From an uncultured Raoultella sp. (GTDB lineage Bacteria; Pseudomonadota; Gammaproteobacteria; Enterobacterales; Enterobacteriaceae), in assembly GCA_900759445.1 (NCBI GenBank), contig CAAEVH010000037.1:1-64000 (forward strand): a DNA stretch of 64,000 nt, given 5' to 3'. Of this stretch, positions 24,069 through 51,766 are shown in pieces (the stretch's first letter is position 1; every line of letters starts with the position of its first letter). Under the pieces are notes generated by a model. It had not been told where the DNA came from. It made no database searches and worked only from the letters and a program-made list of their open reading frames with translations. The position numbers were made by a program, and so were the translations under genes.

Positions 24069-24153
24069 TTTCCTGCCCTTCGATGAGATTATGATACTGT
24101 AAATTTATACAGTGGTTTGATGTTAATCAATACGAAACGCTAAAAATCACATA

Positions 24154-24240
24154 AAAATGATCATTTTCAATAGCTTAAGTAATGTTATTTGGTAGGGTAG
24201 CTCTATTATTGATATCTAAAAATGATCAATAATTGATCAT
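24154..24240. promoter_or_regulatory. TGATCA palindromes in a divergent promoter region
   Basis: AAAATGATCATTTT (24154-24167) is a perfect palindrome. 24222-24240 is a 19-base perfect palindrome made of two TGATCA blocks around a central A. They lie between a leftward 111-residue gene and the rightward EAL gene, in the position of an operator for either. The binding protein is unknown. Confidence 0.55.
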
Positions 24241-24265
24241 CTACCATTATTAGAGATAAGCAGGG

Positions 24266-24940: not shown

Positions 24941-24963
24941 ATCTAAGCCGCATTACAGCGGCT

Positions 24964-29200: not shown

Positions 29201-29209
29201 GGAATAAAC

Positions 29210-31209: not shown

Positions 31210-33031
31210 TGCAATTGATGTAGAAAACCGAAACATTGAGATTGCCTTTGCAAGTGAAACACCTGTTAAACGTGATTTTGGTGAAGGTATTGGTGTACTG
31301 AACGAAATTCTTAAATGTACTCCAGATTCCGTTGATCTATCTCGTATGCTAAATGGTGCTCCATTACTAATTGAACATGACTTTACCCGTCATGTTGGAA
31401 TTGTATTAGATGCGAGAGTAGATAGCGATCATATATGCCGTGCAACAGTAAAACTATCTTCCATTCAAGAAGCAGAAACTATTTTTACAATGATTCAGGA
31501 AGGTATCCGTACCAAAATTTCCGTTGGATACAATATCGAATCTTATCATATCGAAGGTGAAAACCTAATTGTAGATCTTTGGTCGCCATATGAAGTAAGT
31601 AGCGTATCTGTACCCGCAGATGATTATGTTGGTGTTTCACGGTCACTAAATACAAATGAAATTCTAATTAGTGAAGGTGAACAAATGGATATTGAAAACC
31701 AACAAGAAGAACTACGTACTGATGATGTAGTTGAACAAATTGAAGAAGAAAACGAAAGTACTGAATCTGATGAACATGTTGAAGTACAGGAAAGTACCGA
31801 AGCAGTAGAAGATAGTACAGAAGAAACTGAAACGGTAGAAGTACAGGATAGTACTGAAATTGTTGAAGTAGAAGCACAGGAACGTGCAGCACTAAATAAA
31901 GGTGAATCTGACGAAATTAGAATTCGTGAGTTAACCGCTATTGCAGAACTTTTCAATGTAGACGGTTCTGAAGCAATTAAATCAGGTGTATCAGTTGAAC
32001 AGTTTAAACAGGAAGTTCAAACCAGATCCCTAAATAAAGAAACAAATCTAATTAACAAGGATGTTAATCTTATGAAAAAAAATGTAATTGGTGAACTAAT
32101 CCGTAGTATCAACGAAGATAAATTTGATTCTGTAAAAGCTGAACTTGAAAAAGGGCAACGCGGTTTCAAAATGGATTTTTCCCGTGCTCTCGGTGCTAAT
32201 ACCGATACTCAAACAGCAGCAGGAACAGTAAAAACCGTTTATGCGGATTCTTATCTAACCGCTCTATTGGCTCAATCTATTCTTGGTAGGCTAAACCCAA
32301 CTATCTATAGTGGCCTTGCTTATCGTGGCGTTCTAAGTATTCCTCGCCTAACTGGTCTATCTCCAGCAGCTCCAGGTAACTTCAAATTCTATGAAGAAGG
32401 TGACGCAGTAGTTGATTCAATCGCTAACTTTGACTCGATCAAACTATCACCAAAAATGTTTGCTGGTGCTGTACCTGTAACTAAGCAGTTGATGCTAAGT
32501 TCCGATACCGCAGCTACTTTTGTTCAGGATGCTCTAATCCGTTATGCGGCTAATGGTCTTGAAGAACAAATTTTTGATTCTCTACAGGCAGCTATTCCAG
32601 TAGTTAACACCGCAGCAGTTGGTGAAATGACCGAAGCTGATGTACAGAAAGCTATTGAAGCACTCGGTACTGCTAACGTGGATGTACGTTCTTGTGTAGC
32701 TGTAATGCACCCAAGTACCTTAGCAAAACTACGCCAAACCGCAGTATTGGACAACACCGCAGCCGTTTCTATGGTTGAAGGTCATCGTTACGATATGTGG
32801 CTAAACGATGAAGTTCGCGTAATTGAAAGTACTTTTGTAGATGTTGATTCAGTGATCATCGGTGACTTCCGCAATCTAATTATTGCGAACTGGTCAGAAG
32901 GTCAGGAAATTGACGTTGATACAACTACCCATCGTGCAGCACAAATTACTGTTTTCCGCAGCTTCCAGTACTTAGCAACTGCTATTGCTCATGAAGAAGG
33001 TTTTGTAAATCTAAAAATCAAATCCGCTTAA
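31163..33031 (+). CDS. prohead protease - scaffold - major capsid polyprotein
   Basis: 622 residues joining three roles. Residues 1-170 are a prohead serine protease with a candidate His in PLLIEHDFTRHVG near 70 and Ser in TKISVGYNIES near 115. Residues 175-290 form a very acidic, low-complexity scaffold-like linker with repeated ESTE/DSTE units. Residues 304-622 are an HK97-fold major capsid protein (LAQSILGRLNP, AIAHEEGFVNLKIKSA). In-frame ATGs at 31685 and 32072 each have a ribosome site, so separate scaffold and capsid proteins may also be made, similar to lambda C/Nu3. Confidence 0.88.
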   Translation: MKKQLTRELNLQKINNAIDVENRNIEIAFASETPVKRDFGEGIGVLNEILKCTPDSVDLSRMLNGAPLLIEHDFTRHVGIVLDARVDSDHICRATVKLSSIQEAETIFTMIQEGIRTKISVGYNIESYHIEGENLIVDLWSPYEVSSVSVPADDYVGVSRSLNTNEILISEGEQMDIENQQEELRTDDVVEQIEEENESTESDEHVEVQESTEAVEDSTEETETVEVQDSTEIVEVEAQERAALNKGESDEIRIRELTAIAELFNVDGSEAIKSGVSVEQFKQEVQTRSLNKETNLINKDVNLMKKNVIGELIRSINEDKFDSVKAELEKGQRGFKMDFSRALGANTDTQTAAGTVKTVYADSYLTALLAQSILGRLNPTIYSGLAYRGVLSIPRLTGLSPAAPGNFKFYEEGDAVVDSIANFDSIKLSPKMFAGAVPVTKQLMLSSDTAATFVQDALIRYAANGLEEQIFDSLQAAIPVVNTAAVGEMTEADVQKAIEALGTANVDVRSCVAVMHPSTLAKLRQTAVLDNTAAVSMVEGHRYDMWLNDEVRVIESTFVDVDSVIIGDFRNLIIANWSEGQEIDVDTTTHRAAQITVFRSFQYLATAIAHEEGFVNLKIKSA

Positions 33032-33343
<312 letters not shown>

Positions 33344-33344
33344 T

Positions 33345-33782
33345 ATGTTCACGGCAGACTATAAAATCAGAAAGTACTTAATTAATAAACTCTCTCCAGT
33401 TACTAATTTACACTTTCCATCAAAAGCATCAGTAGATGATATTACTGTTGTTTATATTGGTGATTCTTCTGTACAACGTACTCAAGTTGCTAAAGCAAAC
33501 ACAGTTATTAATAATCAAATCGTGCCATCAACTATAAGAAATTTATGTGAATTTCGAGTTGAGTTTGTATCTGTCGGGCAATCATATAAAGAAGCATCCG
33601 ATGAAATTGAAAAAATACTTGAAGCAATTTATACGCCTGGTTTCTTTAATGATTTAAACCAGCAACTTCCAATGCCATTATTCAATATCCGTATTGAAGA
33701 TAGCCTAATGACTTCTCAAGCCGAAGCTACGGAAACCGCTTATGTACACACGCAAACTCTATCTTTTAGCTATGGGGAATAA
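33345..33782 (+). CDS. tail terminator (gpU-like)
   Basis: 145 residues; caps the tail tube during assembly. The length and the mixed alpha/beta pattern (CEFRVEFVSVGQSYKEASDEIEKILEAIY) resemble lambda gpU, and it precedes tail-tube genes as in lambda. Spacing of one or two bases to both neighbours supports an operon. Confidence 0.65.
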   Translation: MFTADYKIRKYLINKLSPVTNLHFPSKASVDDITVVYIGDSSVQRTQVAKANTVINNQIVPSTIRNLCEFRVEFVSVGQSYKEASDEIEKILEAIYTPGFFNDLNQQLPMPLFNIRIEDSLMTSQAEATETAYVHTQTLSFSYGE

Positions 33783-33784
33783 TT

Positions 33785-35473
33785 ATGGCTCAAACATTTT
33801 TAGGGAATCTAACTACGGTATGGATTAACACCGATACAACAAACGTTGATCCTAATTCCCGTAACTTTTCCCAAGTAGAAAACCTTTCAGGATTTCCAAG
33901 TTTTAGTGAAACAACAAACGTATCTACCATTGAAACATATGATAGTACTTACACCTCGAAAGTAGCGGGTGATAGTTCATATGGTGATATGACCATTGAA
34001 GTAAACTATAACCCAACCGAGCATTCTGAACTTGATGCAATTGTTGACTCACAACAGTTAGTACAAGTTAAGGTTGAAATGCTTGATGAAGGTACTAACG
34101 ATACGTCAGTAAACTATGTGATGTACAACGGCTATCTATCCAAAACATCTGACTCATCAGATATTGATACTGTCGTTACTCGCTCGTATGTGTTTACGCC
34201 AGAATCACAGGTATCAGCGGGTATCCTTGATGAATCCGTAGTACCGCTTAACCGTGGTGATTGGGGCGTTGGATCTAACGGGGTAGAGTTCCCAAGCTAT
34301 CAAGGCCGTGATGGTAACTCATTCGTTAAGATCCCAGCGGTGAACTCACCATCAGGCGTAGATATGTTGGGTATCACAAACCTTGATGGTTCTAACGGTA
34401 CTCAGTTAGTGATGAACAAATCCGGTACGCCGGTACTAAATTTCCGTAACTTCTCATCAGCAAGTACTGGTGCATGGTACAAGGTCTATACCACTGCCGA
34501 TAAGCCTACATTGGCAGAGCTTGGTGCGGCAGCCGCTACAGATCTCAGTAATTACGTACCAATCACACGTACTGTCAATGGCAAGCCACTAACTGGAAAT
34601 ATCACCCTTTTAGCAGCCGATATTTCTGATGTGTACTCAAAGACTCAGACCGATAACAGCTATGTTCCTAAAGTGTTTCAGTTAAACGGACACGCACTAA
34701 CAGGTACGGCGTTGAACTTGGTAGCAGCCGATATTTTAGATGTATATTCACAGACGCAGGTTAATACAAACTTTGTATCAAAAACTACTACAGTAAATGG
34801 ATTGGCATTAACAGGTAATATTACTCTAACGGCAGCACAGTTAACCGATATGGCAAGCCTAAGTTATAGTAATAGTACTTTCGTTCCAAAGACGTTCTTG
34901 ATTAATAACAAGCCATTATCTGGTACTAACATTCAATTGGTAGCAGCAGATATTAGTGACGTATATTCACGTACTCAGGCTAACGATCTCTTTGCACTAC
35001 GTATTACTACTGTTAACGGTTATCCATTAAGTTCTAACGTATCTCTAACCTATAATGATGTTGGTACTTACTCGAAAGCACAGATTGATTCAAAGGATGC
35101 AGCACTACAGGCAAACATTGATACTAAGGTAACTATTACGCAGGATTTATTAGTACTAAATACCGTAACAGACACACTTGCTCTTGATATGTCAGATGGG
35201 AAAAGAGTATTCACAGCAACACTTACATTTGCAAGTACACAATTAAGTATTCTCAATGCAAGCGGTAATACTAAGAACAGTCAAACCATCACCGTATATA
35301 TAACTCAAGGTACTGGTGCTAATAAAATAGAATGGCCTTCAAATGTTAAATGGTCATATGGGCGTACACCGGTTTTAACCTTCACTAAAGATTCAGTTGA
35401 TGTTTTTCAATTTAGTTCAGTAGATGGGGGAAGTACCTGGTACGGCTCATTACTAATGGCGGATCTTCATTAA
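33785..35473 (+). CDS. tail-tube paralogue fused to fibre-like repeats
   Basis: 562 residues. Residues about 28-150 align with the separate tail-tube protein at 38353: both share a VE.(L/V)(S/G)(G/A)FP opening, a LT(I/V).VN(Y/W).P segment, QVKV.ML/.TYF, Y.(M/I)(Y/V)NGY(L/V)S and a VVTR.(Y/F)V end. After a spacer come four or five copies of a VNGxxLTGNITL...AADISDVYSxTQ repeat (about 260-430). A fibre tip module ends the protein (GANKIEWPSNVKWSYGRTPVLTFT...VDVFQF). It would place receptor-binding or enzyme-docking arms along or atop the tail tube. Confidence 0.75.
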   Translation: MAQTFLGNLTTVWINTDTTNVDPNSRNFSQVENLSGFPSFSETTNVSTIETYDSTYTSKVAGDSSYGDMTIEVNYNPTEHSELDAIVDSQQLVQVKVEMLDEGTNDTSVNYVMYNGYLSKTSDSSDIDTVVTRSYVFTPESQVSAGILDESVVPLNRGDWGVGSNGVEFPSYQGRDGNSFVKIPAVNSPSGVDMLGITNLDGSNGTQLVMNKSGTPVLNFRNFSSASTGAWYKVYTTADKPTLAELGAAAATDLSNYVPITRTVNGKPLTGNITLLAADISDVYSKTQTDNSYVPKVFQLNGHALTGTALNLVAADILDVYSQTQVNTNFVSKTTTVNGLALTGNITLTAAQLTDMASLSYSNSTFVPKTFLINNKPLSGTNIQLVAADISDVYSRTQANDLFALRITTVNGYPLSSNVSLTYNDVGTYSKAQIDSKDAALQANIDTKVTITQDLLVLNTVTDTLALDMSDGKRVFTATLTFASTQLSILNASGNTKNSQTITVYITQGTGANKIEWPSNVKWSYGRTPVLTFTKDSVDVFQFSSVDGGSTWYGSLLMADLH

Positions 35474-38295
35474 TGATTAGAAAAGGTAACATAAGTAATG
35501 CCCAACAAATGATTGAAGGGCACTGGAAATTTTTAGAACGTAATACGGGTTTAGTTAATGACAATAAAACAGATCACTATGTACTAAACCCTCAGAACGT
35601 CCTATGTAACAACAGGCATTTTATAGCGGAAACGGGCTGGGAAGCACAGCCGGACGGTGACGCAACCACAGAAGGACAATCCTTAGCAATTCTTGGTGCT
35701 ATCTATGCGTATCAGGCAACCAAAGAACCATACTACCTACAACGTGCCAAAGATTTTTTTAATGCCTATCACCTGGCGTTCTTCCGTGGTGTGGCGTTTC
35801 CCGATCCACCTAATGGTTCACTACGCTGTAACTGGATTTGTAACGGCAAGGCTCCAGTACTGGCACATTACCCATTAGACCCAGAGTATCCAACTCACGG
35901 CGGGTTCAAGGGCGTATTGTTCACATGGACGAACGGACAAACACAGATACCTCATGGTTCACCTAACTACGGTGAATACCTCGATGCTGTATGGTTTGCT
36001 TTTCCCGAAAGAGCGGGGCTTGGTTGGAACCAGGTTAACGCTACCGTATATGCATGGTTAGATGATGAAGACTCTATCAATTGGGACGTTAAGGCACCTA
36101 CCTTTGATGTCGCCTGGATAGTCGATAGAACCGGGCGAAAGGTTGATAGTAATGGGGATGTACTGGAAGAAGGACTAACAAGCCAGATAGGTACAGTGCA
36201 GCTCAAGGATACTTCCATCAACGGTAATTACCGCTTCAACTATGCAACACGTAACCCTGTAGAACACGGCGGTTATCTGATGGGGCGTAATGAACGTTGG
36301 CACAACAGGCCAGTACATGTACCACTTGATAACTATGGCTCTCTTGATTTCAGTGATAACGCATCAGATGCCGAATTGTGGTTCTGTCAGGCATGTAAAT
36401 TACTATGGGATATTACAGGCGAACGTATCTATTACTTAGCATGGCAAAATTCATTAATTACATGTACTGGTTATTCTGATATTGACAAATATGATATGTT
36501 TTTCCGTAAAAGTACTATCGCATTAACGCCATTTACAGACGGTATCTCATATGATTATTTCTATCCAAGTGACCAAGTAGCATCATATTCACGTGATTCA
36601 AATGGCTATATAGTAATTAGTCAAAGTGCTTCAGCACAAACAACCCTTGAACAACAATCTATATGGTTCAAGTTCAATAATAGTTCTACTTTCCATGTTG
36701 AATATGGTGGTGTTGATACTACAGGAAAGGCGTTAAGTCTTGCTGTAGCAATGACAGTTAATAAAACTAAAACAGAAGATGGTGCGGTACGATACCGTTG
36801 TGGTTTACCTATTACAAATACTGATGGCAGTGTTATTTCAATGGATGTTCCAATGAACCACTTTACACGTATTGCTAAACCAGATGGTGGACAATATCTA
36901 ACGGCAGATATGCGTATGATTTCTGATTATGGGGATAATACAGTAACTACTTTACAATTTGTTTCCGGTATCGCTGGTACGTACTATGACAATGTAATTT
37001 CTACTACAATGGATTCTGACGGAAGTTCTACAGTAGGTTTCTGGATCTTTGATGATGAAACACAGGACTTAAACACATTCACGTATAGAACATATGCTGA
37101 TGATTTTAATATCCGTATTACTGATGATCTTGGTTGGCGTTGGTGGGCTATGCTACCAGCAAGTAATGGGGCATGGTTAACACAAACGTTTAATGTACTT
37201 GATTTCAAGTTAAGTTCCTATCAACCAGACCATCAGGAAGGTGATGAACAGCCAGGACAACCAACGCTAACAGGACGTGAAGAATTTACACTATTACTTG
37301 ATACCGATCCGATTGATGGCGTTTCAGGTCGTATTGATTGGTATTGTGTTAACGATTTGCCAACACTGTATAATGATGGTGGTACGGGCGATTATTCAGT
37401 ATTAGTAAGTTTAACATTCAATGATAGTACTGGTAATGGATATACCGCACGTTTAGGTGATTGTGTAATCCGTAATTACATGCTTGATAGTCTTTCATAC
37501 ACGCCAGGACTAATACCATTTAGTAACATCACAGATCCGTATGCTCAGCTTTACTCAGGTTGGCGGGGGCTACCATACCCCGGTTATCAATCAGGGGTGA
37601 TATGGTGTTTTAAAGGTACAGCAATTGATGAAACAAGACTAAATAATAGCATTAAGTTCTTATGTGATGCTCAGGACTGGTTTACTAATAAGTTCCATCC
37701 TGCTTTACCTGGCCCTTGTGCTCAAGCATATATATGGAACCGTCAAGACGCATTAGCATATGCCCCTGATGGTAAACCCGATCAATTTACTATGCAGCAC
37801 TGGTATGAAGAGGCCTGGTCTGGTTATGAACCACGAGCGTTCTTCGCAGGTTGTGATGTAGTACATGAACTTTATCAACGTGGTGATTACACCATTCCAC
37901 AGAACATACTTACGTACTGTAAGAACTGGATGAATTATTTGCAGTGGTTCATGAAGAATAATGATGGTCATGCACCAACACGATTTAAAGATGATGGTGA
38001 AGTTATCTATGATGGCTTTACAGGTCATATGTCTGGTTTATGGCTTGCAGGTGCTTCTATGATGGCAATTGCAGGTTATCCAGATCACGAGTTACTTGAT
38101 TTACTATTCACAGAGATACAACAGAACTACGATGTAGTTAGTGCTAATCATGTAATGAATGGTAGCTGGTCATCAGCTATCAGGAGTGGCACACCTACAA
38201 CACCACAAAATAATTCAATGTACTTTGGTTTCTATACAGGTGAATTACTAAGAGGTTTAGCTTTATATATGAAGTACTACAACCTACATACATAA
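35473..38295 (+). CDS. large alpha-toroid protein, putative phage glycan-degrading enzyme
   Basis: 940 residues; the ATG overlaps the stop of the fibre fusion. Residues 1-330 and 700-940 have repeating helical hairpins (EGQSLAILGAIYAYQATKEPYYLQRA; GHMSGLWLAGASMMAIAG) like six-hairpin glycoside hydrolases, split by a beta-rich middle (about 360-640). No catalytic pair can be assigned with confidence. Coupling to the tube-fibre gene suggests a virion enzyme against surface polysaccharide such as capsule. The family name is not recalled. Confidence 0.55.
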   Translation: MIRKGNISNAQQMIEGHWKFLERNTGLVNDNKTDHYVLNPQNVLCNNRHFIAETGWEAQPDGDATTEGQSLAILGAIYAYQATKEPYYLQRAKDFFNAYHLAFFRGVAFPDPPNGSLRCNWICNGKAPVLAHYPLDPEYPTHGGFKGVLFTWTNGQTQIPHGSPNYGEYLDAVWFAFPERAGLGWNQVNATVYAWLDDEDSINWDVKAPTFDVAWIVDRTGRKVDSNGDVLEEGLTSQIGTVQLKDTSINGNYRFNYATRNPVEHGGYLMGRNERWHNRPVHVPLDNYGSLDFSDNASDAELWFCQACKLLWDITGERIYYLAWQNSLITCTGYSDIDKYDMFFRKSTIALTPFTDGISYDYFYPSDQVASYSRDSNGYIVISQSASAQTTLEQQSIWFKFNNSSTFHVEYGGVDTTGKALSLAVAMTVNKTKTEDGAVRYRCGLPITNTDGSVISMDVPMNHFTRIAKPDGGQYLTADMRMISDYGDNTVTTLQFVSGIAGTYYDNVISTTMDSDGSSTVGFWIFDDETQDLNTFTYRTYADDFNIRITDDLGWRWWAMLPASNGAWLTQTFNVLDFKLSSYQPDHQEGDEQPGQPTLTGREEFTLLLDTDPIDGVSGRIDWYCVNDLPTLYNDGGTGDYSVLVSLTFNDSTGNGYTARLGDCVIRNYMLDSLSYTPGLIPFSNITDPYAQLYSGWRGLPYPGYQSGVIWCFKGTAIDETRLNNSIKFLCDAQDWFTNKFHPALPGPCAQAYIWNRQDALAYAPDGKPDQFTMQHWYEEAWSGYEPRAFFAGCDVVHELYQRGDYTIPQNILTYCKNWMNYLQWFMKNNDGHAPTRFKDDGEVIYDGFTGHMSGLWLAGASMMAIAGYPDHELLDLLFTEIQQNYDVVSANHVMNGSWSSAIRSGTPTTPQNNSMYFGFYTGELLRGLALYMKYYNLHT

Positions 38296-38352
38296 ATAAT
38301 ATATGAAAGGGATAGCAAGGATCGTTATCCCTAAATTTAAAGGAATAATAAA

Positions 38353-38826
38353 ATGGCTTTTAATTCTATTTTCATTGGTAATAATGTCAAAGTTGAAATC
38401 GCAGAAGCTCCAGCTAATGGCGGTCAGGCAACTACTTTTACCGTTGTTGAAGAAGTTGGTGCTTTCCCAGCAGCAGCAGGTGCTGAATCGAACGTAGTTA
38501 GCGTAAATACTTTCGGTCAACAGTACGCCAAGAAACTTCTTGGTTCTCGTAGTGTTCCAGATCTAACGCTAACAGTTAACTGGAAACCAGGTTCAACAGG
38601 TCAGGAACTACTTGCATCGGCAGCAGCATCACAAAAACTCATGCAAGTTAAAGTTACCTATTTCCAGAACATCGCAGATCAAGACGGCCCTGCATATTAC
38701 AGCATCGTTAATGGTTACGTAAGTTCTGATGTTGTTAACGGTGATTTTGACGGGGTAGTTACTCGTGATTTCGTTGTATCTGTAACGGGTGCTCCAATCG
38801 CAGTTGGTGAAGTAACTGGTGCTTAA
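38353..38826 (+). CDS. major tail tube protein (gpV-like)
   Basis: 157 residues; polymerises into the tail tube. Homologous to the N-terminal part of the fibre fusion upstream. It carries no Ig-like extension, unlike lambda gpV. It stands immediately before the G/T chaperone pair, the canonical position. A good AAAGGA ribosome site lies upstream. Confidence 0.85.
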   Translation: MAFNSIFIGNNVKVEIAEAPANGGQATTFTVVEEVGAFPAAAGAESNVVSVNTFGQQYAKKLLGSRSVPDLTLTVNWKPGSTGQELLASAAASQKLMQVKVTYFQNIADQDGPAYYSIVNGYVSSDVVNGDFDGVVTRDFVVSVTGAPIAVGEVTGA

Positions 38827-38867
38827 TTACTAAATACTCTACGAATTAATTACAAGGATAAACAAAA

Positions 38868-39158
38868 ATGGATTTCTCTAATCTTATGAAAGCTATTGGT
38901 GTGAAAGTAACACCAGTAGAACTAACACCAGAATGTACTGTATATATTAAACTACCTAACATTACCCAACATGCAGAATGTGCTGATCCATATAAGGCAA
39001 TTTTCTATTGTGTAGTTGATGAAGAAGGTAAACAGATTTTTGATTCACCTGAACAAGTTGAAGAAAAAGTTGATCTTACTGTACAACTAAAATTGAATGC
39101 TGAAATTGGAAACGTTTTTGCTAAATCCTTTAATGTTGAGGATGTAGAGGGAAAGTAA
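38868..39158 (+). CDS. tail assembly chaperone G
   Basis: 96 residues, gpG-like, ending ...DVEGK. Its last codons form the slippery site G-GGA-AAG at 39149-39155 just before the stop, the same heptamer as in lambda. Most ribosomes stop here to give G; some shift -1 to make GT. G recruits the tape measure during tail assembly. Confidence 0.85.
   Translation: MDFSNLMKAIGVKVTPVELTPECTVYIKLPNITQHAECADPYKAIFYCVVDEEGKQIFDSPEQVEEKVDLTVQLKLNAEIGNVFAKSFNVEDVEGK
39149..39155 (+). promoter_or_regulatory. -1 programmed frameshift site (GGGAAAG)
   Basis: In the zero frame the reading is G-GGA-AAG-TAA. A -1 slip lets ribosomes continue from 39155 in the T frame, open to 39523. Lambda G/GT uses the identical heptamer. 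Confidence 0.85.
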
Positions 39159-39523
39159 GACGCGATCCGATTCTCAAACTATCACTATCTTTATTGTATA
39201 ACAACGGGTGTAGTGTGGATGAACTCTGCACTATGCCCGTTTTGCTTTTCTACTACCTGTTAGTTTTTAAAGAAATCGTTGATCCTGAATCTTCACAGAT
39301 AGAGCAAATCAGGCATACCGAACTACTACAGGCAATATGGTTAAGTACTGGCAACATAAAGAAAGAAGATATACCTAAATTTAATATCTATGAACTCGAC
39401 TCACTGAATATTATTTCAAATAAAACCTTAGCTGAACAACATGCAGAGAGGGAGAAGAAGATCGCAGAACAAAACAAAGCAAATATGCTTAATTGGATGG
39501 GAGTAAAGCCTAATGGCAAATAA
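39155..39523 (+). CDS. T segment of the GT tail chaperone fusion (by -1 frameshift)
   Basis: The frame opened by the -1 slip encodes about 122 residues beyond G, making a GT protein of about 218. It has no proper start codon of its own: only a TTG at 39194 without a ribosome site. Lambda T likewise exists only as GT. GT bridges tape measure and tail tube. The end overlaps the tape-measure start by 11 bases. Confidence 0.8.
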   Translation, partial: VRRDPILKLSLSLLYNNGCSVDELCTMPVLLFYYLLVFKEIVDPESSQIEQIRHTELLQAIWLSTGNIKKEDIPKFNIYELDSLNIISNKTLAEQHAEREKKIAEQNKANMLNWMGVKPNGK

Positions 39524-41975
39524 CAATAGACAATCAATGATTTTTGAAATCACTGGTGATGAATCAGGATTACAAAGATCATTAAAAAATGTAGCCAATG
39601 ATATAGGTAACTTTGGTGATCAGGCGGGTGGGGTATTCGGTGGGATCAATACTGGCTTATCTACTACCTCTAAAGCTATGTCAGGTTTTGCAGGTGCTGT
39701 AGGTGTGGCAGGCTTAGCCATTGCTGCAACTATGGCAAAAGTACAGGAACAATCAGAAAAGGCTTTTGAAGTCTTTCAGGCAGCATCTCTATCACAGTCA
39801 GGTATAGTACAGATTCAACAGGCCGCTAATATGTTCGCCGCCGTTGGTCTTACTATGGATAACGTAGCTGATCAGATAAAAGACTCAAAGGATAAGTTGG
39901 GCGATGCCATAACTAACAATGCTGGTTCTATGTTAACTGACGTTATTCAACCGTTGAAATTGAATATGTTCGAGCTACAGAAAGCAGCAGAAAACGGTGA
40001 AGATATTATTGCAAAGATTTACTATCAGGCTAAACAAATGGGATTCAGTCAGTCTCAGATAGTAAACATGATGGAAACTGTTGCAAACGATGCATCAAAA
40101 CGCATGACTATCTACAGAGAGTTTAATAGTGAACAAGAGTATCAAAACAGCCTTGCTAATGAAACCATACAACTAACCGCAGAACAATCACGACAATTTG
40201 AAGAATACAGGACTGCAACTAATAATTTATCCAGAGCGTGGGATAGCTGGAAAAACTCAACCCTTGCACCTGTTGCACAGAACCTTGCTGAAATTCTCGA
40301 TTTAATGACGAAAATTCTTAATAGCAAACCTGTTAATGCAGCGGCAGCAGCAGTTAGTAAAGAAGGCATTCAGGCAACTCAACAGTACCAACAACAGTTT
40401 CAACAACAGATACTAAAAAATTCTTCAATCTATGGTACACAAATAGTAGCAGATCAGCAAAAGCAGCAAGAGGAAAATAATAAAACCTTTGCAAACTTAT
40501 TAGCAAATCTTGATGCAGCACATAACCTACTTGATAAACAGAAAGAAGAATACAATAAAGGCTCAGATAGAAGCGTAATTGATACTGCATTAAAACCTTA
40601 TCTTTCCGCTAAACAAAAAACTCAAGCACAGATTGATACCCTTGATGCAACACATGCACAATTAAGAGCAACTATTAAAGATTCTTTGGTACGAGCATAT
40701 AAAGGCGATCAGGCAGCTATGAATGCCGATTTAGCTAAACTTGATGAAGGTTATAAAGACAACAGAGAGAAATTAGTAAAAAGCCTAACAGCCGATGAAG
40801 ATAAAGCACGTGATGCAAAGTTAAAAAAAGATGATGCCGCAGCGAAAGCAGCTAAGGCAGCACAAGATAAAATTAATGAGCAAACGAAGAGAGCAAAGGC
40901 ATTATTAGAACAAACGTTATCACAGATCGGTACTAATGAAACTCAAGTACGTATTACCCGTTTTAACTATGAACAAGATCAGATTGAAAAGCGTATACGT
41001 GAAGCAGGTAAATTAGCTGGTAGTTCTGAATCTGAAATTACAGATATGTTATCCAAGCAATATGAAAGCCGTAAAACTAAGTACAAAGATATGGTTGATC
41101 AAATGCTTGATGAAACTGACAGACTAAAACAGGCACAGAACATTGCAGCTATTGCTAACGATCCCAATGCAACACCAGATGCTAAGGCACGAGCAGCAGC
41201 AGCGGGTACTACCTGGATGAATGATACCGTTAGTCAGGGTTTAGGGTACAAGAACCCGTTAGATTTTTCGCCAGATCAAGTACAGAACCAGAACATCAAC
41301 ACCGAAGAACAAGAGAACCAAGATGGGGCTAAGGCTCTATACGATGCCAAAGTAATTGGATTCCAGGAGTACCAGGATCAGCTAACAGCGATTCAGGCCA
41401 ACGCCGATATAAAACGTGGTCGATTAACCGCAGACGCACTAACCAGTACGTTAGGGATGTGGCAAGCGGGGGCAGGTAACGTAGGGGATATCATGGCTGG
41501 TGTGTTCGGTGAGTCATCAGCAGCGGCAAAGGCAGCATTTGCCGTAAGCAAAGGCATTGCCATTGCTCAGGCAGTGATCAACATCCAGCAGGGCATATCC
41601 GAAGCCATAAAACTTGGATGGCCTATGGGGATCGCAGCAGGGCTACAGGTAGCAGCTCAGGGTGCTTCCATTGTACGTACTATCAAGGGTACAGCTATCC
41701 AGGGGCAAGCCCACGATGGATGGGATTCACTACCAAGTACTGGTACATACAATCTTGAAAAAGGTGAACGTGTAGTAGGTAAATCATTAAACCAAGATTT
41801 AACCAAATACTTGAGTAATCAGGATGGCAGTAAATCAGGTGATGTTAAAATTGATGCACCATTAATTATTAATAGTAATGGTCAAATCTCAGATGCTGAT
41901 TTCCAAAAGATGTGTGATAAACACGCTGATGTAATAGTCCAGGCAACACGTAAATCTCAAAAAAATAACGTATAA
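39513..41975 (+). CDS. tape measure protein
   Basis: 820 residues setting tail length. Long helical stretches with coiled-coil character (about 300-480), an N-terminal amphipathic head domain and hydrophobic segments near 55-75 and 640-710 (AAFAVSKGIAIAQAVINIQQGISEA). The C-terminus contains the AHDGWDSLPSTGTYNLEKGERVV motif typical of lambda-type tape measures. Position after GT is canonical. Confidence 0.92.
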   Translation: MANNNRQSMIFEITGDESGLQRSLKNVANDIGNFGDQAGGVFGGINTGLSTTSKAMSGFAGAVGVAGLAIAATMAKVQEQSEKAFEVFQAASLSQSGIVQIQQAANMFAAVGLTMDNVADQIKDSKDKLGDAITNNAGSMLTDVIQPLKLNMFELQKAAENGEDIIAKIYYQAKQMGFSQSQIVNMMETVANDASKRMTIYREFNSEQEYQNSLANETIQLTAEQSRQFEEYRTATNNLSRAWDSWKNSTLAPVAQNLAEILDLMTKILNSKPVNAAAAAVSKEGIQATQQYQQQFQQQILKNSSIYGTQIVADQQKQQEENNKTFANLLANLDAAHNLLDKQKEEYNKGSDRSVIDTALKPYLSAKQKTQAQIDTLDATHAQLRATIKDSLVRAYKGDQAAMNADLAKLDEGYKDNREKLVKSLTADEDKARDAKLKKDDAAAKAAKAAQDKINEQTKRAKALLEQTLSQIGTNETQVRITRFNYEQDQIEKRIREAGKLAGSSESEITDMLSKQYESRKTKYKDMVDQMLDETDRLKQAQNIAAIANDPNATPDAKARAAAAGTTWMNDTVSQGLGYKNPLDFSPDQVQNQNINTEEQENQDGAKALYDAKVIGFQEYQDQLTAIQANADIKRGRLTADALTSTLGMWQAGAGNVGDIMAGVFGESSAAAKAAFAVSKGIAIAQAVINIQQGISEAIKLGWPMGIAAGLQVAAQGASIVRTIKGTAIQGQAHDGWDSLPSTGTYNLEKGERVVGKSLNQDLTKYLSNQDGSKSGDVKIDAPLIINSNGQISDADFQKMCDKHADVIVQATRKSQKNNV

Positions 41976-42026
41976 ATATCATATAGCCCACATGGATTGT
42001 GGGCTAATCATTAAAGGAATAATAAT

Positions 42027-42581
42027 ATGTTAAACAACGCTCTTATTAGTGAGTTCATGTTAACGGATAATATACCGCAATACCAAAACCAAACCTGGAC
42101 AGGTGAAACTATTACACGTGTGGTTGGTTCGCAGTACTTTACCCTTAGTTTTAAAGTTACCTTGAACAAAATGAACCGTGCAGAACTCGCTAACTTCTAC
42201 GCATTATATGGTCAGGGCAAACCGTTCTCAATGCCTCTTGGTTGGTGGAGCACATACAACGGTACTCAAATCTCACAGGTACAGGCAACCGCAGCAAGGG
42301 CAGCAGGGGCAACTTCAATTGCCGTGAATGCTAATTCTCTTGAGGTTGGTACATTAGTACAATTCAATGGACACACTAAACTGTATCGAATTATCGCCAA
42401 TAATGGCAGTGTGATTACTATTTTCCCTGGTCTTGTTAAAAATATTCAGCTTGGGGAAGTAATGAAATATGACAATATTCAAGGTTCATTTATTCTTACA
42501 CCACAGAACGCAGCATATAAAATGCCAAGTACTAACGTAATGGAAGTGACAATAAACGCAACCGAAAACATCAGAGGTTAA
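42027..42581 (+). CDS. minor tail protein (gpM-like position)
   Basis: 184 residues. The opening PQYQNQTWTGETITRVVGSQYFTLSF and the central AGATSIAVNANSLEVGTLVQFNGHTKLYRI look like a distal-tail protein with an inserted small beta domain. It lies between tape measure and the L-like gene and so should form part of the tail tip ring. Assignment is mostly by position. Confidence 0.6.
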   Translation: MLNNALISEFMLTDNIPQYQNQTWTGETITRVVGSQYFTLSFKVTLNKMNRAELANFYALYGQGKPFSMPLGWWSTYNGTQISQVQATAARAAGATSIAVNANSLEVGTLVQFNGHTKLYRIIANNGSVITIFPGLVKNIQLGEVMKYDNIQGSFILTPQNAAYKMPSTNVMEVTINATENIRG

Positions 42582-42583
42582 TT

Positions 42584-43228
42584 ATGTCAATTCCAAACAA
42601 TGTACTAAACAATCCAGAACTTGTTAGTTACTGGAATCTGACTCGTGGTGATAACAAAACGATTCTAACAGAGAAAGAACTCTATCAGTGTGGCGTTATG
42701 GTAAAGCTAATTGATGTACTTCCACCTACTGGCAGCAGCATATATCTCACTGATTCATTGGCAGACCAGAACTACAACGGCATTACATATAAATCGGTTC
42801 CTGATTTTCTTGATTCATCATTTGCGAATTATGTAGAAAAAACACAAATCAACAATAACGGTACTTCATTGAAAGTAAGTAACGTAAGCCAGGATTATCT
42901 TTCTATGGCCTTACGTGGATTATGGAATGATGCAAAAGTAAACATCTGGATGGGGATTGTTAATCCGGCTACAGGTAGCATTCTTTATGCCTACCGTATG
43001 TTCAGTGGTTACATCGATTACTTTAGTTCTGACTTTAACAATGCAGCAAGTAATACCACAAATGAAACTACTGTTAATCTAAGTTCGATGTGGAAGAAAT
43101 TAGATCAGACACAACGCTTGTTATCAAGTACATCAGTACACCAATCAATGCATACTGGCGATAAGTTCTTTGACTTAATCGGCATACTAAATAGTTCAGA
43201 GCAATTCTGGAAGAGTAGTAAGAAATAA
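42584..43228 (+). CDS. minor tail protein (gpL-like / DUF2163-like)
   Basis: 214 residues, beta-rich tip protein with LTDSLADQNYNGITYKSVPDF and LSMALRGLWNDAKVNIWMGIVNPATG, in the position of lambda L. Its stop overlaps the next start by one base. No cysteine cluster for an iron-sulphur site as in lambda gpL is visible, apart from one isolated cysteine. Confidence 0.6.
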   Translation: MSIPNNVLNNPELVSYWNLTRGDNKTILTEKELYQCGVMVKLIDVLPPTGSSIYLTDSLADQNYNGITYKSVPDFLDSSFANYVEKTQINNNGTSLKVSNVSQDYLSMALRGLWNDAKVNIWMGIVNPATGSILYAYRMFSGYIDYFSSDFNNAASNTTNETTVNLSSMWKKLDQTQRLLSSTSVHQSMHTGDKFFDLIGILNSSEQFWKSSKK

Positions 43229-43623
43229 TGAAAAATGGATTTATAACAGAGTACCTAAGTGGTTTAGTTGGTGAACCGTTAGTGTACGGTACTAATGATT
43301 GTCATATCATGGTACTTACCGTAATAGATATGATTACTGGTAGTAATTACCGTGATGAAATCTATCAGAAATACACAACACCAACAGCAGGTAGAAAATA
43401 CGCAAAAGCAAACTGTAGTTATTCTACTCTACATCTATTGTGTAAAGAAAAAGGCCAATTGGTAAGTGAACCACTTGATGGGGATATAATTATTTCATCA
43501 GGTCACAGTACAGTTTATTGGCGAGGGAAAGTTGTAATTTTATCAGAAGATAAATCCAACTATATCGTTTCTCAATATATCCCAAATGAAAAAGACAAAA
43601 TATACAGATTTAAAGGGGAATAA
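43228..43623 (+). CDS. NlpC/P60-like tail protein (gpK-like)
   Basis: 131 residues. YGTNDCHIM near residue 20 gives the catalytic Cys (NDC motif) and the IISSGHSTVYW segment near 90 the His of a papain-like NlpC/P60 fold. In tails this acts as a peptidoglycan peptidase or a tip-assembly factor. Overlaps the L-like gene and lies two bases before the J-like gene. Confidence 0.7.
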   Translation: MKNGFITEYLSGLVGEPLVYGTNDCHIMVLTVIDMITGSNYRDEIYQKYTTPTAGRKYAKANCSYSTLHLLCKEKGQLVSEPLDGDIIISSGHSTVYWRGKVVILSEDKSNYIVSQYIPNEKDKIYRFKGE

Positions 43624-43625
43624 CT

Positions 43626-46600
43626 ATGGCAGTAGCAGCAGTTGCCGTAGCTATTATCGCAGGAGCATCAGCAGCGGCAGCAGCATACGCAGCAGGTTTA
43701 GCTTTAGCAGCAGTAGTAGCTATAGGTATTGGTACAGCAGCACTATCTTACATTAGTTCATCACAGATGATGAATGTAGGTCAAATGGGGGTAACGTATC
43801 CGAGTACGGGTAGTAACAATGCCCGTTCAACATCACCAAGTACTGGCATACCAATTTCATACGGTGGTTCTAACCGCAACGCAACAGAAGTCGCCTATAA
43901 CAAGTTAGGCTCTATCGTCGTATGGCAGAACGTCTATAAAGGTACTTCAAACCAGTTATGTACGGTTCACGCGATCAGTATCGGTGAAATCGGGCAAGTA
44001 CCAGGGGAACAATCACAAGGCGTAATCAAGCAGATCTATTTTGATAATGCTCCGGTACTCATGGATGGTGCGTACATCACCACAGAGGGGATCGTACCTA
44101 CCTCAATGATGATTGAGAAGTACCGCAAGTACTTGCAGATTGAGGTACGTTTCGGTAAGCCTTCCTACGGTGGTTCTATGACGCTTGCCCGTCAATATGG
44201 CGGCAGTCAATGGACTGACAACATGCGTGGTGATGGTCTTGTACAGATCTGTACTGTAATCAAGAAAACCAACGATTCACTAATTGATGGAATTCTAACG
44301 AACCAGAACTATACATTATCGGTAGAAATGCGTGGACGTATGATCTATGACTTAACTGATAATGTACGTAAACCAAGTTCAAACCCACCAAGCCAACTAT
44401 ATGACTTTATCACTAATACAGAATTTGGATTCGGTCTTGATCCTAATGATATTGATATTACCAGTTTCCTTAACATAGCAAACTATTGTGCTCAGAATCA
44501 TTTCTATTCCAATGGAAATATTCAGTATGATAAATCCTTTAAGGAAAACATCGAAAACATTCTACAAACATTTGGTGGTGTACTTTATGAATCGAATGGG
44601 AGGTACTATCTAACCGTAGATGCACCAGACATTCCTGTTAAGCATTTTGATGAATCAAGCATTATTGGCGGTGTAAATATCACAACTGGTTCAAAGTCAG
44701 AGTACTTTAACTGTATGGATTCTACCTATACAAACCCAGGTAATGACTATTCACAAGATATTATCCGTTATCCAAGTAATGCCCTTAATAATGAAACTAT
44801 TACTAAAGATGGTTACATTATCAAGAAGGATTTAAACTACCTTTGGGTACAGGATAAGACTCAACTTGCAACACTAAGTAATATCGAACTGCTCAAATCT
44901 AAGTACATCAGCAATACCATCACATTCAACACTTACGTATCAGACTTGAAAGTATTCGATGTTTTTACAATCGATTTTGATGAAGCCGGTTTTAGTAATA
45001 ACAAGTATAGATGTGTGCAACGTACTGTACCAATGACTGTAGACAAAACAGGCATCATCCAGATTACAGCAATTTCCTACGCTGATGGGGTGTATCAGGG
45101 CAAAGATCCAGGGCAGTTCCCACAGGATGGATTGACCAATCTACCTAACCCAACATACGTAGAACCGCCAAGTAATCTAAAGGCTCAGCGTCTTGGGGCA
45201 ACAGCTACAGGTAACGCAGTACTACTAACATGGGATCTCAGTCAGGATACCTCAGTACGTGGATACAAGATCCGCTACAAGCGTAGTGATTCCGGTACTT
45301 GGGTTAACATCGGTAACGTAGGGCAGTACTCAACCAGTTTTGAAATTTTGAATCTACTATATGGTGTACAGTATGATTTTGCTATTGAGGCGTATAACAC
45401 ATTAGGTTATTCATCAGAATTAGTAGCAATCTATAATCAAACACCGCAAGTTATTTTTGCATTACCTAAAATAACTAACCTTAATATGGTGAATGATGAT
45501 GTTGGTCTAAATCAGACTTATGCTCAGGATTTTATTTTCAGATGGGATGATCAGAGTAATGTTGCTGTTAATGGAAAAACATTTACTGATTTCTTTAAAC
45601 ATTATGAAATTCGTGTGTATGACCGATACAGGAACTACATCACCTCGTACTACACCACTACAAGCAACTGGACGTATACATTTGCAATGAATACCAGCGA
45701 TGGCCTAAGCCGTTATCGCGTGTTTGGTATCATCGCTCATGGTTGGGGTACTGGTATCTACAGTGAGGAAGTACAGATAGAGGTAAGTAACCCGCAGCAT
45801 CCACAAATCTTAGGTATCACATTACGTAACGGTTATGAAAATGTGTTCATCGACTGGACTGAATCAAACATCCCTGATTACTCAGGTATCGTTATGCAGA
45901 TCGCCAAAGATGAGGGGTTCAGTTCAGATACCCACTATTTCAGTAGTTCGAACCGCTATAGTGCGTCGTTCGGCGTTGAGGATGGTAGCTGGTTCGCACG
46001 TGTGGCAGCGTATGACGTATTCGGTCAGGATGAACTTGTATGGTCGCCTACTATCGGTTTTAACCAGAACACGAAAGTACCTTACAGTAAGCTGAATGAT
46101 GATGTAATTGATGGGCTACTTAACAGTGATAAAGCTACAGGTATTGTTGAGAAACAGATCGTAGATGAACTTGGTTCACGCTGGCAGCTACAGGTATCAA
46201 ACAACGGCAATGTAACGGGTATTGCTCTTGCAGCAGATGAAAAAACATCAATATTTACCGTTATGGCGGATCGCTTCAGCGTGATCAGTACTGATAGTGC
46301 TAAACAGAGTGATAAGGTTTATCCGTTTGTGATTCAGAACGGCAAGACTTACATCAACTCAGCGGTTATAGCTGATGCGAGTATCAATACAGCTCAAATT
46401 AACAACTTAGCAGTTACTACCGCCAAGATTCAAAACGCCGCTATTGATAATACTAAAATCGCCAATGCTGCTATTCGTAATGCACATATCATGAATGGTG
46501 AAATAGACTCAGCCAAAATCAGCCAGCAGATACAATCAAGTAATTGGGATGGTTCAAATGGTTGGATGATCAACAAGAATGGTACTGCCAACTTTAGTAA

Positions 46601-47159
46601 CGCTACTATTCGCGGTACAATTTTTGCGAACAGTGGGGTACTCAACAACGTTACTATCAATGAAAACTGTAATATTCTTGGTACGTTAAGTGCTACTCGT
46701 ATAGTTGGTGATGTTTGTCGCCCACAATCAACAGGCATCCAGTCTAATCAATTCCTTTTTGGTTCGAAGGTGGTTAGTGGTGGTACAGTCGGCTTATCTC
46801 CAGTACCGAACCAACACTATGTAGCGTTGCGTATACGTGGTGAAGATTTTGACAGATACTTAGATAGTAATATGTCAATCAGTCTTGCAAGTTATGAACG
46901 CCAGTACTTCTATATACGTATGGGTGGTGATGGAATTGGGTTAACCAATTTGGCTTACATAGATGCAGGTAACGATGGACACAATACACCTTATACTTAT
47001 CGTTTAAATGGTGTTTTTATACCTCGTGTTGGTCGCGGTAACTGGAACTATATCTATGTTATGTGTACTACAAGCCGTGGTTCTACTGCTTCACTAAATG
47101 TTCCTGCTGATTTCCAAGCATGGGTTTACAGAGCAGGGGATCAACCGCTCTATAACTAA
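43626..47159 (+). CDS. tail tip / host-specificity protein (gpJ-like)
   Basis: 1177 residues. A hydrophobic alanine-rich N-terminus (about 1-50) of the gpI-type is followed by the conserved J hub (TSPSTGIPISYGGSNRNATEV; GSIVVWQNVYKG). A fibronectin-III domain lies at about 518-620 (PSNLKAQRLGATATGNAVLLTWDLS), with a second weaker one after it. A C-terminal stem with AKIQNAAIDNTKIANAAIRNAHI precedes a receptor-binding tip at about 1040-1177. It appears to fuse I-like and J-like parts since no separate I gene is present. Confidence 0.9.
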   Translation: MAVAAVAVAIIAGASAAAAAYAAGLALAAVVAIGIGTAALSYISSSQMMNVGQMGVTYPSTGSNNARSTSPSTGIPISYGGSNRNATEVAYNKLGSIVVWQNVYKGTSNQLCTVHAISIGEIGQVPGEQSQGVIKQIYFDNAPVLMDGAYITTEGIVPTSMMIEKYRKYLQIEVRFGKPSYGGSMTLARQYGGSQWTDNMRGDGLVQICTVIKKTNDSLIDGILTNQNYTLSVEMRGRMIYDLTDNVRKPSSNPPSQLYDFITNTEFGFGLDPNDIDITSFLNIANYCAQNHFYSNGNIQYDKSFKENIENILQTFGGVLYESNGRYYLTVDAPDIPVKHFDESSIIGGVNITTGSKSEYFNCMDSTYTNPGNDYSQDIIRYPSNALNNETITKDGYIIKKDLNYLWVQDKTQLATLSNIELLKSKYISNTITFNTYVSDLKVFDVFTIDFDEAGFSNNKYRCVQRTVPMTVDKTGIIQITAISYADGVYQGKDPGQFPQDGLTNLPNPTYVEPPSNLKAQRLGATATGNAVLLTWDLSQDTSVRGYKIRYKRSDSGTWVNIGNVGQYSTSFEILNLLYGVQYDFAIEAYNTLGYSSELVAIYNQTPQVIFALPKITNLNMVNDDVGLNQTYAQDFIFRWDDQSNVAVNGKTFTDFFKHYEIRVYDRYRNYITSYYTTTSNWTYTFAMNTSDGLSRYRVFGIIAHGWGTGIYSEEVQIEVSNPQHPQILGITLRNGYENVFIDWTESNIPDYSGIVMQIAKDEGFSSDTHYFSSSNRYSASFGVEDGSWFARVAAYDVFGQDELVWSPTIGFNQNTKVPYSKLNDDVIDGLLNSDKATGIVEKQIVDELGSRWQLQVSNNGNVTGIALAADEKTSIFTVMADRFSVISTDSAKQSDKVYPFVIQNGKTYINSAVIADASINTAQINNLAVTTAKIQNAAIDNTKIANAAIRNAHIMNGEIDSAKISQQIQSSNWDGSNGWMINKNGTANFSNATIRGTIFANSGVLNNVTINENCNILGTLSATRIVGDVCRPQSTGIQSNQFLFGSKVVSGGTVGLSPVPNQHYVALRIRGEDFDRYLDSNMSISLASYERQYFYIRMGGDGIGLTNLAYIDAGNDGHNTPYTYRLNGVFIPRVGRGNWNYIYVMCTTSRGSTASLNVPADFQAWVYRAGDQPLYN

Positions 47160-50113: not shown

Positions 50114-50129
50114 TGTCCTTAATGATTTA

Positions 50130-50336
50130 TTATTCCCAATTAACAGTAGTATCTAAACCACGCAAGTTAGTGTGTTCAGTACGTGTAGCTGTACGCACGA
50201 CTTCGCCTGTTTCCTTAGACAAAATATCAAATACTTCAATTTCAGTTTGTCCCATAGTTCCTTTAGTTCTAAAGCTTTTGCGGACATAGTCAAACTTATC
50301 TTTTGGGTATTTAGCTTCAAAATCTGCTTCTTTCAT
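50130..50336 (-). CDS. small basic protein, unknown
   Basis: 68 residues starting at the second ATG (50336), which has AAGGA at proper distance; the first ATG three codons upstream abuts that ribosome site. Charged, beta-containing (QTEIEVFDILSKETGEVVRTATRT). No family recognised. Leftward in the same direction as the membrane gene downstream. Confidence 0.5.
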   Translation of the reverse strand: MKEADFEAKYPKDKFDYVRKSFRTKGTMGQTEIEVFDILSKETGEVVRTATRTEHTNLRGLDTTVNWE

Positions 50337-50419
50337 ATTCTTCATCCTTAAAATTTTATTTGATTATATGACGCAACCTAAAGGCTTAGCCGGTTTGCTT
50401 TCAAAACTAATCTTAACGG

Positions 50420-51247
50420 TTACGATTGTAATTCAAAATACTTATTAACTATTTCTGCTATTCCAGGCTCAACATTAGCACCTATAACCAGATCAGCACT
50501 ATCTTTTACCTTATCAGAAGCGTTACCCATAGCTACACCAAGACCAGCATTCTTTAGCATACTGATATCGTTGTAGTTGTCACCAAAAGCGATAACTTGG
50601 TTCATAGATAAACCCTGAGATTCAACCCATTGTGCTAAGCGTTTACCCTTACTGTTTCCGCTTTGGGCTATATCTACCTGATCATGCCAAGACCATTCAC
50701 AAGCAAGGCCAAGCTCACTTTCAACCACATCTGCAAAATCTTGCAACTTCACTATATCAGTATCGGTCAGAGCAAATTTCCAGATAGAAGATACTTCATG
50801 TGCGGCTTCTCGTATCGAGTTTACTTTTTTGAACACAGGACGTTGCGATTCTGGCAGGGATCTTGCCCAATTTTCAGTACGGATAATGTGTCCGGTTGCC
50901 TCTTGATAAATCATGGCGTCATCGGCGTACATCAATCCATGAACATCGTAACTATCAAGCAGGTCAATCAGTCGAATAGCTTCTTCAGATTGCAGGGGAT
51001 CAGACTCAAGCACCTTCTTTTCTTGGTAATCGTACAATAATGCACCATTACAACATATTGCAGGAGTATCTAAGCCAAGTGATTGATAAAATGGATGAAT
51101 TGCAACAAAATGCCTTCCAGTAACAATGACGACTTTTGCACCAGATTTACGGGCATTCTCTAAGGCAGTGAGTGATTCAGGAAGGATTTTTTTTTCTGGG
51201 GTTAATAAAGTACCGTCCAGATCGAGAGCTATTACCTGATAATTCAT
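50420..51247 (-). CDS. ybhA: phage-borne complete YbhA (HAD phosphatase)
   Basis: 275 residues from MNYQVIALDLDGTLL; an earlier ATG 15 codons upstream is less likely. All HAD motifs are intact: nucleophile DLDGT at 9-13, VTGRH near 45, the lysine of SKGKRLAQW and the metal site GDNYNDISML. It is closely similar to the two host ybhA halves, roughly two thirds identical by eye, but AT-rich and recoded. The family dephosphorylates small phosphorylated metabolites such as pyridoxal phosphate. At the site that corresponds to attB the codons read GCA TTA TTG TAC rather than ACT TAT TTG TAT. Confidence 0.92.
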   Translation of the reverse strand: MNYQVIALDLDGTLLTPEKKILPESLTALENARKSGAKVVIVTGRHFVAIHPFYQSLGLDTPAICCNGALLYDYQEKKVLESDPLQSEEAIRLIDLLDSYDVHGLMYADDAMIYQEATGHIIRTENWARSLPESQRPVFKKVNSIREAAHEVSSIWKFALTDTDIVKLQDFADVVESELGLACEWSWHDQVDIAQSGNSKGKRLAQWVESQGLSMNQVIAFGDNYNDISMLKNAGLGVAMGNASDKVKDSADLVIGANVEPGIAEIVNKYFELQS

Positions 51248-51380
51248 GCTATTTTCGCTGTGTCTTAGTTTGTGATTGCTCTGATAGTACACCGCTTACT
51301 TTGTTGATCAAAACTTGTAACTCATGGAAAGGGAAGCACTGAAGAGCTGAAAAATATTTTGTAGTAATGCTTCACCTATT
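51248..51380. other. Phage ybhA promoter region and right arm of attP
   Basis: 133 bp of non-coding phage DNA. In the excised circular phage this stretch would abut 16083-16124, placing attP between the divergent phage ybhA and integrase genes. Integration moves it 35 kb from the integrase. Confidence 0.6.
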
Positions 51381-51593
51381 CAAATAAGTGCCATTACAAC
51401 AAATTGCAGGTGTATCCAGAGCCAGTGCCTGATAAAAAGGATGGATAGCGACGTGATGTCGGCCAGTGACGACGATCACCTGGAACCCAGCCGCTCTGGC
51501 GCGGGCCAGGGCTTCCAGCGAGGCGGGCAGGATAGTTTTGTTGGAGGTGAGCAGGGTGCCGTCTAAATCCAGTGCAATCACGCGTGATGTCAT
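51372..51593 (-). pseudogene. ybhA: host ybhA, 5' part (N-terminal fragment)
   Basis: Residues 1 to about 71 of host YbhA, from MTSRVIALDLDGTLL (start 51593) to CCNGTYL, followed by two phage-derived codons and a stop. It contains the nucleophile and TGRH motifs but lacks the lysine and GDNYND metal motifs. Still likely transcribed from the host promoter but not functional. Confidence 0.93.
51381..51385. other. attR crossover (CAAAT)
   Basis: Right prophage junction. To the right the host ybhA continues leftward codons for C-C-N-G-T-Y; to the left is phage DNA. Shares CAAAT with attL. Confidence 0.85.
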
Positions 51594-51766
51594 GTGTTGT
51601 TTCCGGTTAATGATGAAAAAATTGCCTGACATGATGGTACACCGCTATGCCAGCGGGGCAAATTTTTCAGCATCTACCGTTAAAAGAGTCTATACATTGC
51701 ATCAGCTCAGCAGCTTGATGAATGAAATGTATACGTTTTCCCTGTGCAGTGAGGAAAGGAGCAGTC

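Follow-up and report, generated by a model that had tools for sequence, protein, structure and literature searches.

A prophage inserted in ybhA carries a complete, target-recoded ybhA that probably substitutes for the gene it disrupts

In the 64,000-nucleotide stretch of Raoultella DNA analysed here (the window), an AT-rich prophage of 35,303 bp interrupts the host ybhA gene at codon 71 (Leu, TTG) and carries, just inside its right end, a complete second ybhA. The surrounding chromosome is Klebsiella-like: in a collection of plasmid records, the best matches to a 12-kb query were about 84% identical to Klebsiella over 36–47% of its length. This second gene is very probably a replacement that was captured once and recoded at the integration target: insertion would break ybhA and the element-borne copy would substitute for it. 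The lysogen would thereby probably keep YbhA, an enzyme of vitamin B6 metabolism. We infer from the comparisons below that the copy is expressed, that its product is active and of benefit to fitness, and that the recoded site would fail as a substrate of the integrase.

The interrupted host gene and the copy beside it

When the two flanks of the prophage were joined, the resulting 819 bases had two mismatches with the intact ybhA of a near-identical strain (G001, the nearest genome compared, with protein identities to the window of 100% for pgl and 99.5–100% for the parts of ybhA). Integration was therefore exact and, as judged from the joined flanks, exact excision would restore host ybhA. 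As had been predicted, the HAD domain is parted between the two host fragments (Table 1). The host-derived part of the 5′ fragment (51381–51593, minus strand, codons 1–71) is followed by two phage codons and a stop at 51372, and the phage copy stands apart as a full gene of its own; in the window, no missing end is supplied in frame with the host part. The resolvase, recombinase and zinc-ribbon domains found together in about 600 aa identify the enzyme at the left end as a large serine integrase, and the short common core, CAAAT, with exact conservative junctions is as expected of this class. Minus-strand ORFs lying between the integrase and the terminase genes (21525–25988) may be accessory or defence cargo; an NCBIfam search of four of them gave no match. 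Near the left end, positions 20318–21043 matched a phosphorothioate-DNA restriction endonuclease model weakly (18.9 bits against a cut-off of 180).

Table 1. Positions in the window of the host ybhA fragments, the element and its ybhA copy
Feature	Position	Strand	Evidence
Host ybhA 3′ fragment, codons 71–272	15472..16080	-	PF08282 positions 68–255; 99.5% protein identity to G001 ybhA
attL core CAAAT (gene strand ATTTG)	16078..16082	.	same junction in 11 elements compared
Large serine integrase, 613 aa	16125..17966	+	PF00239, PF07508, PF13408; phrog_95 integrase
Packaging, head and tail genes (terminases, portal, major head protein, tape measure, tail tip)	26833..47159	+	family matches
Complete phage ybhA, 275 aa	50420..51247	-	PF08282 1–254/255; NF007821 pyridoxal phosphatase, 471.5 bits
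attB-equivalent codons 69–74 of phage copy (GCA TTA TTG TAC GAT TAC)	51026..51043	-	codon comparison
Promoter-like element GTGTACTATC of phage copy	51283..51292	-	TGTACTAT upstream of 14/14 aligned copies and of the G418 copy
Host ybhA 5′ fragment	51372..51593	-	truncated 73-codon ORF; PF08282 1–66/255
attR core CAAAT	51381..51385	.	common to both junctions
Promoter-like element GTGTACCATC of host ybhA	51633..51642	-	sequence comparison

The phage copy scored well above the curated cut-off of the NCBIfam pyridoxal-phosphatase equivalog (NF007821, HAD-IIB Cof type; 274 bits). The listed ORF of 290 aa (50420–51292) opens at a GTG within the promoter-like element; the true start is likely the ATG at 51247, which aligns with the start of the relatives. 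The copy is on the strand of the interrupted host ybhA, with its start 133 bp away from the crossover core. The copy and host ybhA have 507 of 819 aligned bases in common (61.9%), with a longest exact run of 11 bases, and their GC contents are 40.6% (31% at third positions) and 57.5% (68%), respectively. The residues DxDGT, T43, K200 and GDNxND, which we take to be the HAD motifs, were invariant in all 16 phage-type copies aligned. The element thus carries a full-length version of the gene that it destroys, and the intact, AT-rich YbhA with all catalytic motifs that had been read from the window was borne out. The primary paper on YbhA as a pyridoxal phosphate (PLP) phosphatase is said to be that of Sugimoto et al. 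This activity is also given in passages of PMC12393044 and PMC9997740. Since ybhA is non-essential in E. coli, and its loss was even favoured in one ΔpdxB evolution background (a passage of PMC12393044), the benefit of rescue may be modest.

The copies bring their own upstream region, and this might be taken as a sign of regulatory takeover, in which the copy would serve to alter the timing or strength of YbhA production much as the HK022 promoter does at torS, a precedent described in part of PMC6814406. The promoter-like element of the phage copy nevertheless matches that of the host (GTGTACTATC against GTGTACCATC), the phage-type copies having TGTACTAT where the host genes of G001 and K-12 have TGTACCAT; this likeness suggests similar control, and takeover is an unlikely account of the copy. 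A sigma-70 scan of positions 50000–51800 returned four sites against 4.5 expected, none of them at the upstream element of the copy, and no terminator-like site was found in a scan of the same interval. Directly 3′ of the phage ybhA lies a 71-aa ORF (50130..50345, minus strand), possibly co-transcribed with it, which is kept in that place in several relatives (tblastn matches beside the copy in L004, L014, L058 and L063).

Recurrence of the copy at one integration site

A full-length ybhA copy in the same place and orientation was present at 15 of the 16 right junctions of this site, which span at least four genera plus metagenomes; such recurrence makes chance unlikely. Besides the window, the junctions were those of E. 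coli SW071618, G3/10, ESBLEC_MG48 and FDN-24 and of further elements in Citrobacter sp. 18056, Mangrovibacter phragmitis, M. plantisponsor, four IMG/VR records (3300048924, 3300031418, 2700989490 and 3300014072), G241, G098 and G418, together with the copy-less IMG/VR record 3300013678. The core is no longer recognisable in G098, which was counted because the host 5′ fragment directly adjoins the copy. The window's own phage also has an IMG/VR record (G002/G394), which begins within the copy and was not counted a second time; L072, L074 and L078, which start at the ATG of the copy and show no junction, and L077, L079, L080 and L081, which hold a full host-type ybhA, were outside the count. The last three are virus records that end with this full host-type gene, and other prophages may therefore lie beside, not in, ybhA. 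Four further virus records without a copy (G395, G396, G397 and G400, ends L065–L068) were rejected as copy-less junctions, since they contain no host 5′ fragment and so stop short of the right junction.

Comparison of 11 elements gave CYTATTTG at attR, followed by phage sequence, and A(T/C)TTG at attL, followed by host TATGATTATC; all thus cross over at the same few bases. Their integrases are only 50–58% identical to that of the window, and their attP arms differ.

The original prediction had proposed a search for the same integrase beside ybhA copies in other genomes, and had named related phages at this site without any ybhA as evidence against it. The search found the arrangement in E. 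coli, Citrobacter, Mangrovibacter and IMG/VR. On the second point the outcome was divided: 15 of the 16 junctions have the copy, and one has none. That one (IMGVR_UViG_3300013678_000001, L082/L117) is known only from a 10,457-bp metagenome contig that lacks its integrase end; the host 5′ fragment and the same attR core are followed directly by a holin gene (L082:279–928), and no ybhA copy was found anywhere in the contig. It could represent secondary loss or a phage that never had ybhA. It is the result that speaks most against a strict rule, and it weakens 'always' more than it does the idea of replacement.

Among 5426 E. coli genomes, five matched the integrase. In each of the four examined the element occupied ybhA and a 'pyridoxal phosphatase' was encoded immediately within its right end; in strain G3/10 the integrase was cut by IS1. 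The same five genomes gave the five best matches to the phage copy (73–77% identity over 91–98% of it), the remaining rows being at most 65% identical among the best 50 of 5341 rows; one short piece elsewhere reached 70% (strain A34, 25% of the query). ybhA lay in one place over at least 80% of its length in 5334 of the 5341 E. coli genomes with a match, and, going by fragment sizes, the five elements should account for five of these seven exceptions; in strain A34, ybhA was broken by an IS66-type element. An integrase profile matched four of 392 family genomes at an E value of 1e-60 (two Mangrovibacter ybhA elements and two at other loci) and two of 394 relatives. The distant integrases of G251 and G367 were rejected as ybhA elements: they lie elsewhere, beside a YggS-like gene in G251 and with no ybhA in the flanks in G367 (names assigned by eye), and both genomes have a full-length ybhA match on another contig.

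Two of the elements with a copy appear not to be phages. In the 14-kb element of SW071618 no phage structural gene was annotated, and in that of G418 (about 11.5 kb) none was recognised by eye among the ORFs; in both, integrase and ybhA copy occupy opposite ends. The carrier therefore seems to be a module of integrase, attP and ybhA, not the phage as such. The cargo of the SW071618 element (10 of 11 genes tested, the IS being left out) includes a CBASS cyclase, a 2TM effector and a PDC-S20 gene. These defence genes, the last coding for an NTPase, lie at L001:22150–33002, and a 33-residue match to the C-terminal part of the integrase was seen near 29560.

Two other elements have decayed. The G241 integrase breaks off after about 94 residues, beside a transposase-like ORF, and less than 5 kb of that element is left; its ybhA copy is open. 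At the G098 locus the decayed element is reduced to the phage ybhA plus two small genes, lying between pgl and modC (L116:9991–11669); this integrase had no match there, and a host 3′ part was not found. This genome has no full-length YbhA other than the phage copy: besides a 69-residue host fragment, the next matches are paralogues of at most 29% identity. The phage gene, to judge from these matches, is standing in for host ybhA in this genome. Retention of just ybhA in these decayed elements is good evidence of host use. The same observations bear on the possibility that ybhA is an auxiliary metabolic gene, a PLP/FBP phosphatase serving phage replication whose place beside attP reflects only where it was picked up. 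Phage-like, AT-rich codon use and long residence in the module would fit such a role; against it, the copy adjoins its own target gene at all 15 junctions that have it, is present in two apparently non-phage elements and is kept in both decayed ones, and the concentration of differences at attB described below would be unexpected. An auxiliary role is therefore very unlikely.

Origin, selection and recoding at attB

In the protein tree, phage-type and host-type YbhA parted on one branch with an SH-aLRT of 100 (68 against 83 rows, the 68 phage-type rows being 57 database proteins plus 11 elements, some of them the same); all phage-type rows have Leu, or once Val, at residue 70. The same split was obtained when residues 64–78 were left out (47 against 66 rows). 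The clade must be larger than the sample, since the protein searches took the best 120 of 537 and the best 120 of 548 matches. The nearest host rows were three proteins, followed by proteins named Dryocola, Buttiauxella and Cedecea. Single capture is the simplest reading of this tree, and phage-type ybhA was probably taken once from a relative of Dryocola, Cedecea or Buttiauxella hosts; the upstream region seems to have been included. Capture by imprecise excision alone was rejected, since an integrated element is bordered by nothing more than the two parts of the split gene; a full-length copy would thus need recombination with an intact one.

Open frames of 271–280 aa were found in all 18 copies read. 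Median dN/dS was 0.122 among the phage copies (57 usable of 136 pairs, 17 copies) and 0.133 among host ybhA genes (207 usable pairs, 34 genes), and median dS between phage copies was about 1.7. These values indicate that the copies are under purifying selection like that on the host genes. A neutral hitch-hiker, captured by chance and still to be lost, might explain the one junction in 16 without a copy; retention at the other 15, the open frames of all copies read and a dN/dS equal to that of host genes at so high a dS make it extremely improbable.

The prediction that the copy differs from host ybhA in the codons corresponding to attB was exact: the copy reads GCA TTA TTG TAC and the host ACT TAT TTG TAT. 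The exact 14-base core TATTTGTATGATTA was present in 27 of 34 host genes and in none of 17 phage copies. Near-fixed differences between the two groups (at least 80% on each side) numbered 18 over 813 sites; six of these surround the core within a stretch of 36 bases, and no other 36-base window of the gene had more; 1.2% of window positions reach this count (3.4% for windows of 50 bases). Tyr72 and Tyr74 were encoded by TAC in 33 of 34 phage cases, against 35 of 101 other Tyr codons of the same genes, and by TAT in 62 of 66 cases in the host genes; TAC was present at both residues in the G418 copy. Since the phage copies are related to one another, none of these counts of bases or codons can be treated as independent, and a phage-type profile, through its best matches, was the source of most of the 34 host genes. 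General AT-amelioration was rejected as the sole cause, since AT-rich copies use the C-ending codon at Tyr72 and Tyr74 and the near-fixed differences are densest at attB. TTG at codon 71 is kept in most copies, and loss of recognition by the integrase would therefore rest on the flanking changes. Residues 69–70 are AY, SV, AV and GE in four solved relatives; given this variation, T69A and Y70L are plausibly tolerated.

The central proposal of the original prediction, that the copy is replacement cargo that avoids self-targeting, gains support from its recurrence, its single clade, purifying selection, the differences centred on attB and its survival in decayed elements.

Proposed mechanism and relation to known systems

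In the proposed mechanism, the large serine integrase would insert the element at codon 71 of ybhA, breaking the host PLP phosphatase gene. The complete ybhA beside attP, transcribed away from it and equipped with a host-derived promoter element, could be transcribed both from a promoter of its own and by read-through starting at that of host ybhA, and so supply the enzyme. Recoding of the attB codons by synonymous changes together with T69A and Y70L would prevent attP from recombining with the element's own copy and a second element from integrating there, and the lysogen would be left without attB. RecA-mediated excision has a length threshold; with 62% DNA identity and a longest common run of 11 bases, homologous excision against the host fragments would be hindered. 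Since its capture, the copy would have evolved together with the integration module. On balance it seems probable, with some reserve, that integrase, attP and a recoded full-length substitute for the target form a natural integrate-and-rescue cassette: one portable module, captured once and common to prophages and defence islands, which would keep the cost of integration to the host low, block self-integration and second integration, and be able to replace the host gene permanently, as in G098.

Phage 21 and e14, which integrate at icd, and tRNA-integrating phages restore the 3′ end of their target gene. They resemble the ybhA element in that integration occurs inside a gene whose function is kept afterwards, in the case of ybhA probably; the ybhA element differs in supplying a separate, diverged and attB-recoded whole gene, while the host fragments stay broken. 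Synthetic home-and-rescue gene drives destroy a target and carry a recoded rescue copy that resists targeting. The likeness, target destroyed and recoded copy carried, is one of analogy only: the ybhA element is natural, is based on an integrase and has no copying bias. The target gene of Listeria phage 10403S is presumably comK. This phage is an example of active lysogeny, as described in part of PMC6814406; its insertion likewise breaks a host gene, but function is regained there by excision, whereas the ybhA element has its copy present while integrated. From the same part of that source, phage DNA at the junction of HK022 takes over the function of the interrupted torS/torT locus, as proposed for ybhA, with the difference that HK022 supplies a promoter to a host gene and the ybhA element a complete coding gene. 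A Mycobacterium abscessus prophage likewise carries, as a separate gene, a tRNA-Thr that would substitute for a target damaged on integration; its authors speculate in a passage of PMC9934374 that it complements the impaired host tRNA. That case is a single, speculative one concerning a tRNA, while ybhA encodes a protein enzyme and its copies form one clade in several genera. Serine-integrase IMEs in rumA and other genes, like the ybhA element, disrupt conserved protein genes by means of a serine integrase; the relevant part of PMC5704250 describes disruption of dispensable genes and mentions no replacement copy. Among the matches listed in a search of open-access full-text literature, where subscription journals are mostly absent, no phage-borne full-length ybhA and no such arrangement was found by title or start of abstract. 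Integration that preserves the function of the target is known; a separate, whole, recoded substitute gene seems to be new.

The usual view is that phages keep integration cheap by inserting at the ends of tRNA genes or in genes that the host can spare, or by repairing one end of the gene that they enter. The ybhA element offers a testable explanation of how conserved coding sequence can serve an integrase as target. It also parallels, in nature, the recoded rescue genes of engineered systems, and it suggests how a viral gene may come to replace that of a host core enzyme. Loss of function need not follow where a host gene looks 'disrupted' by an adjoining prophage and, if the proposal is true, the cassette would let an integrase exploit a conserved protein gene of value to the host without costing that host much.
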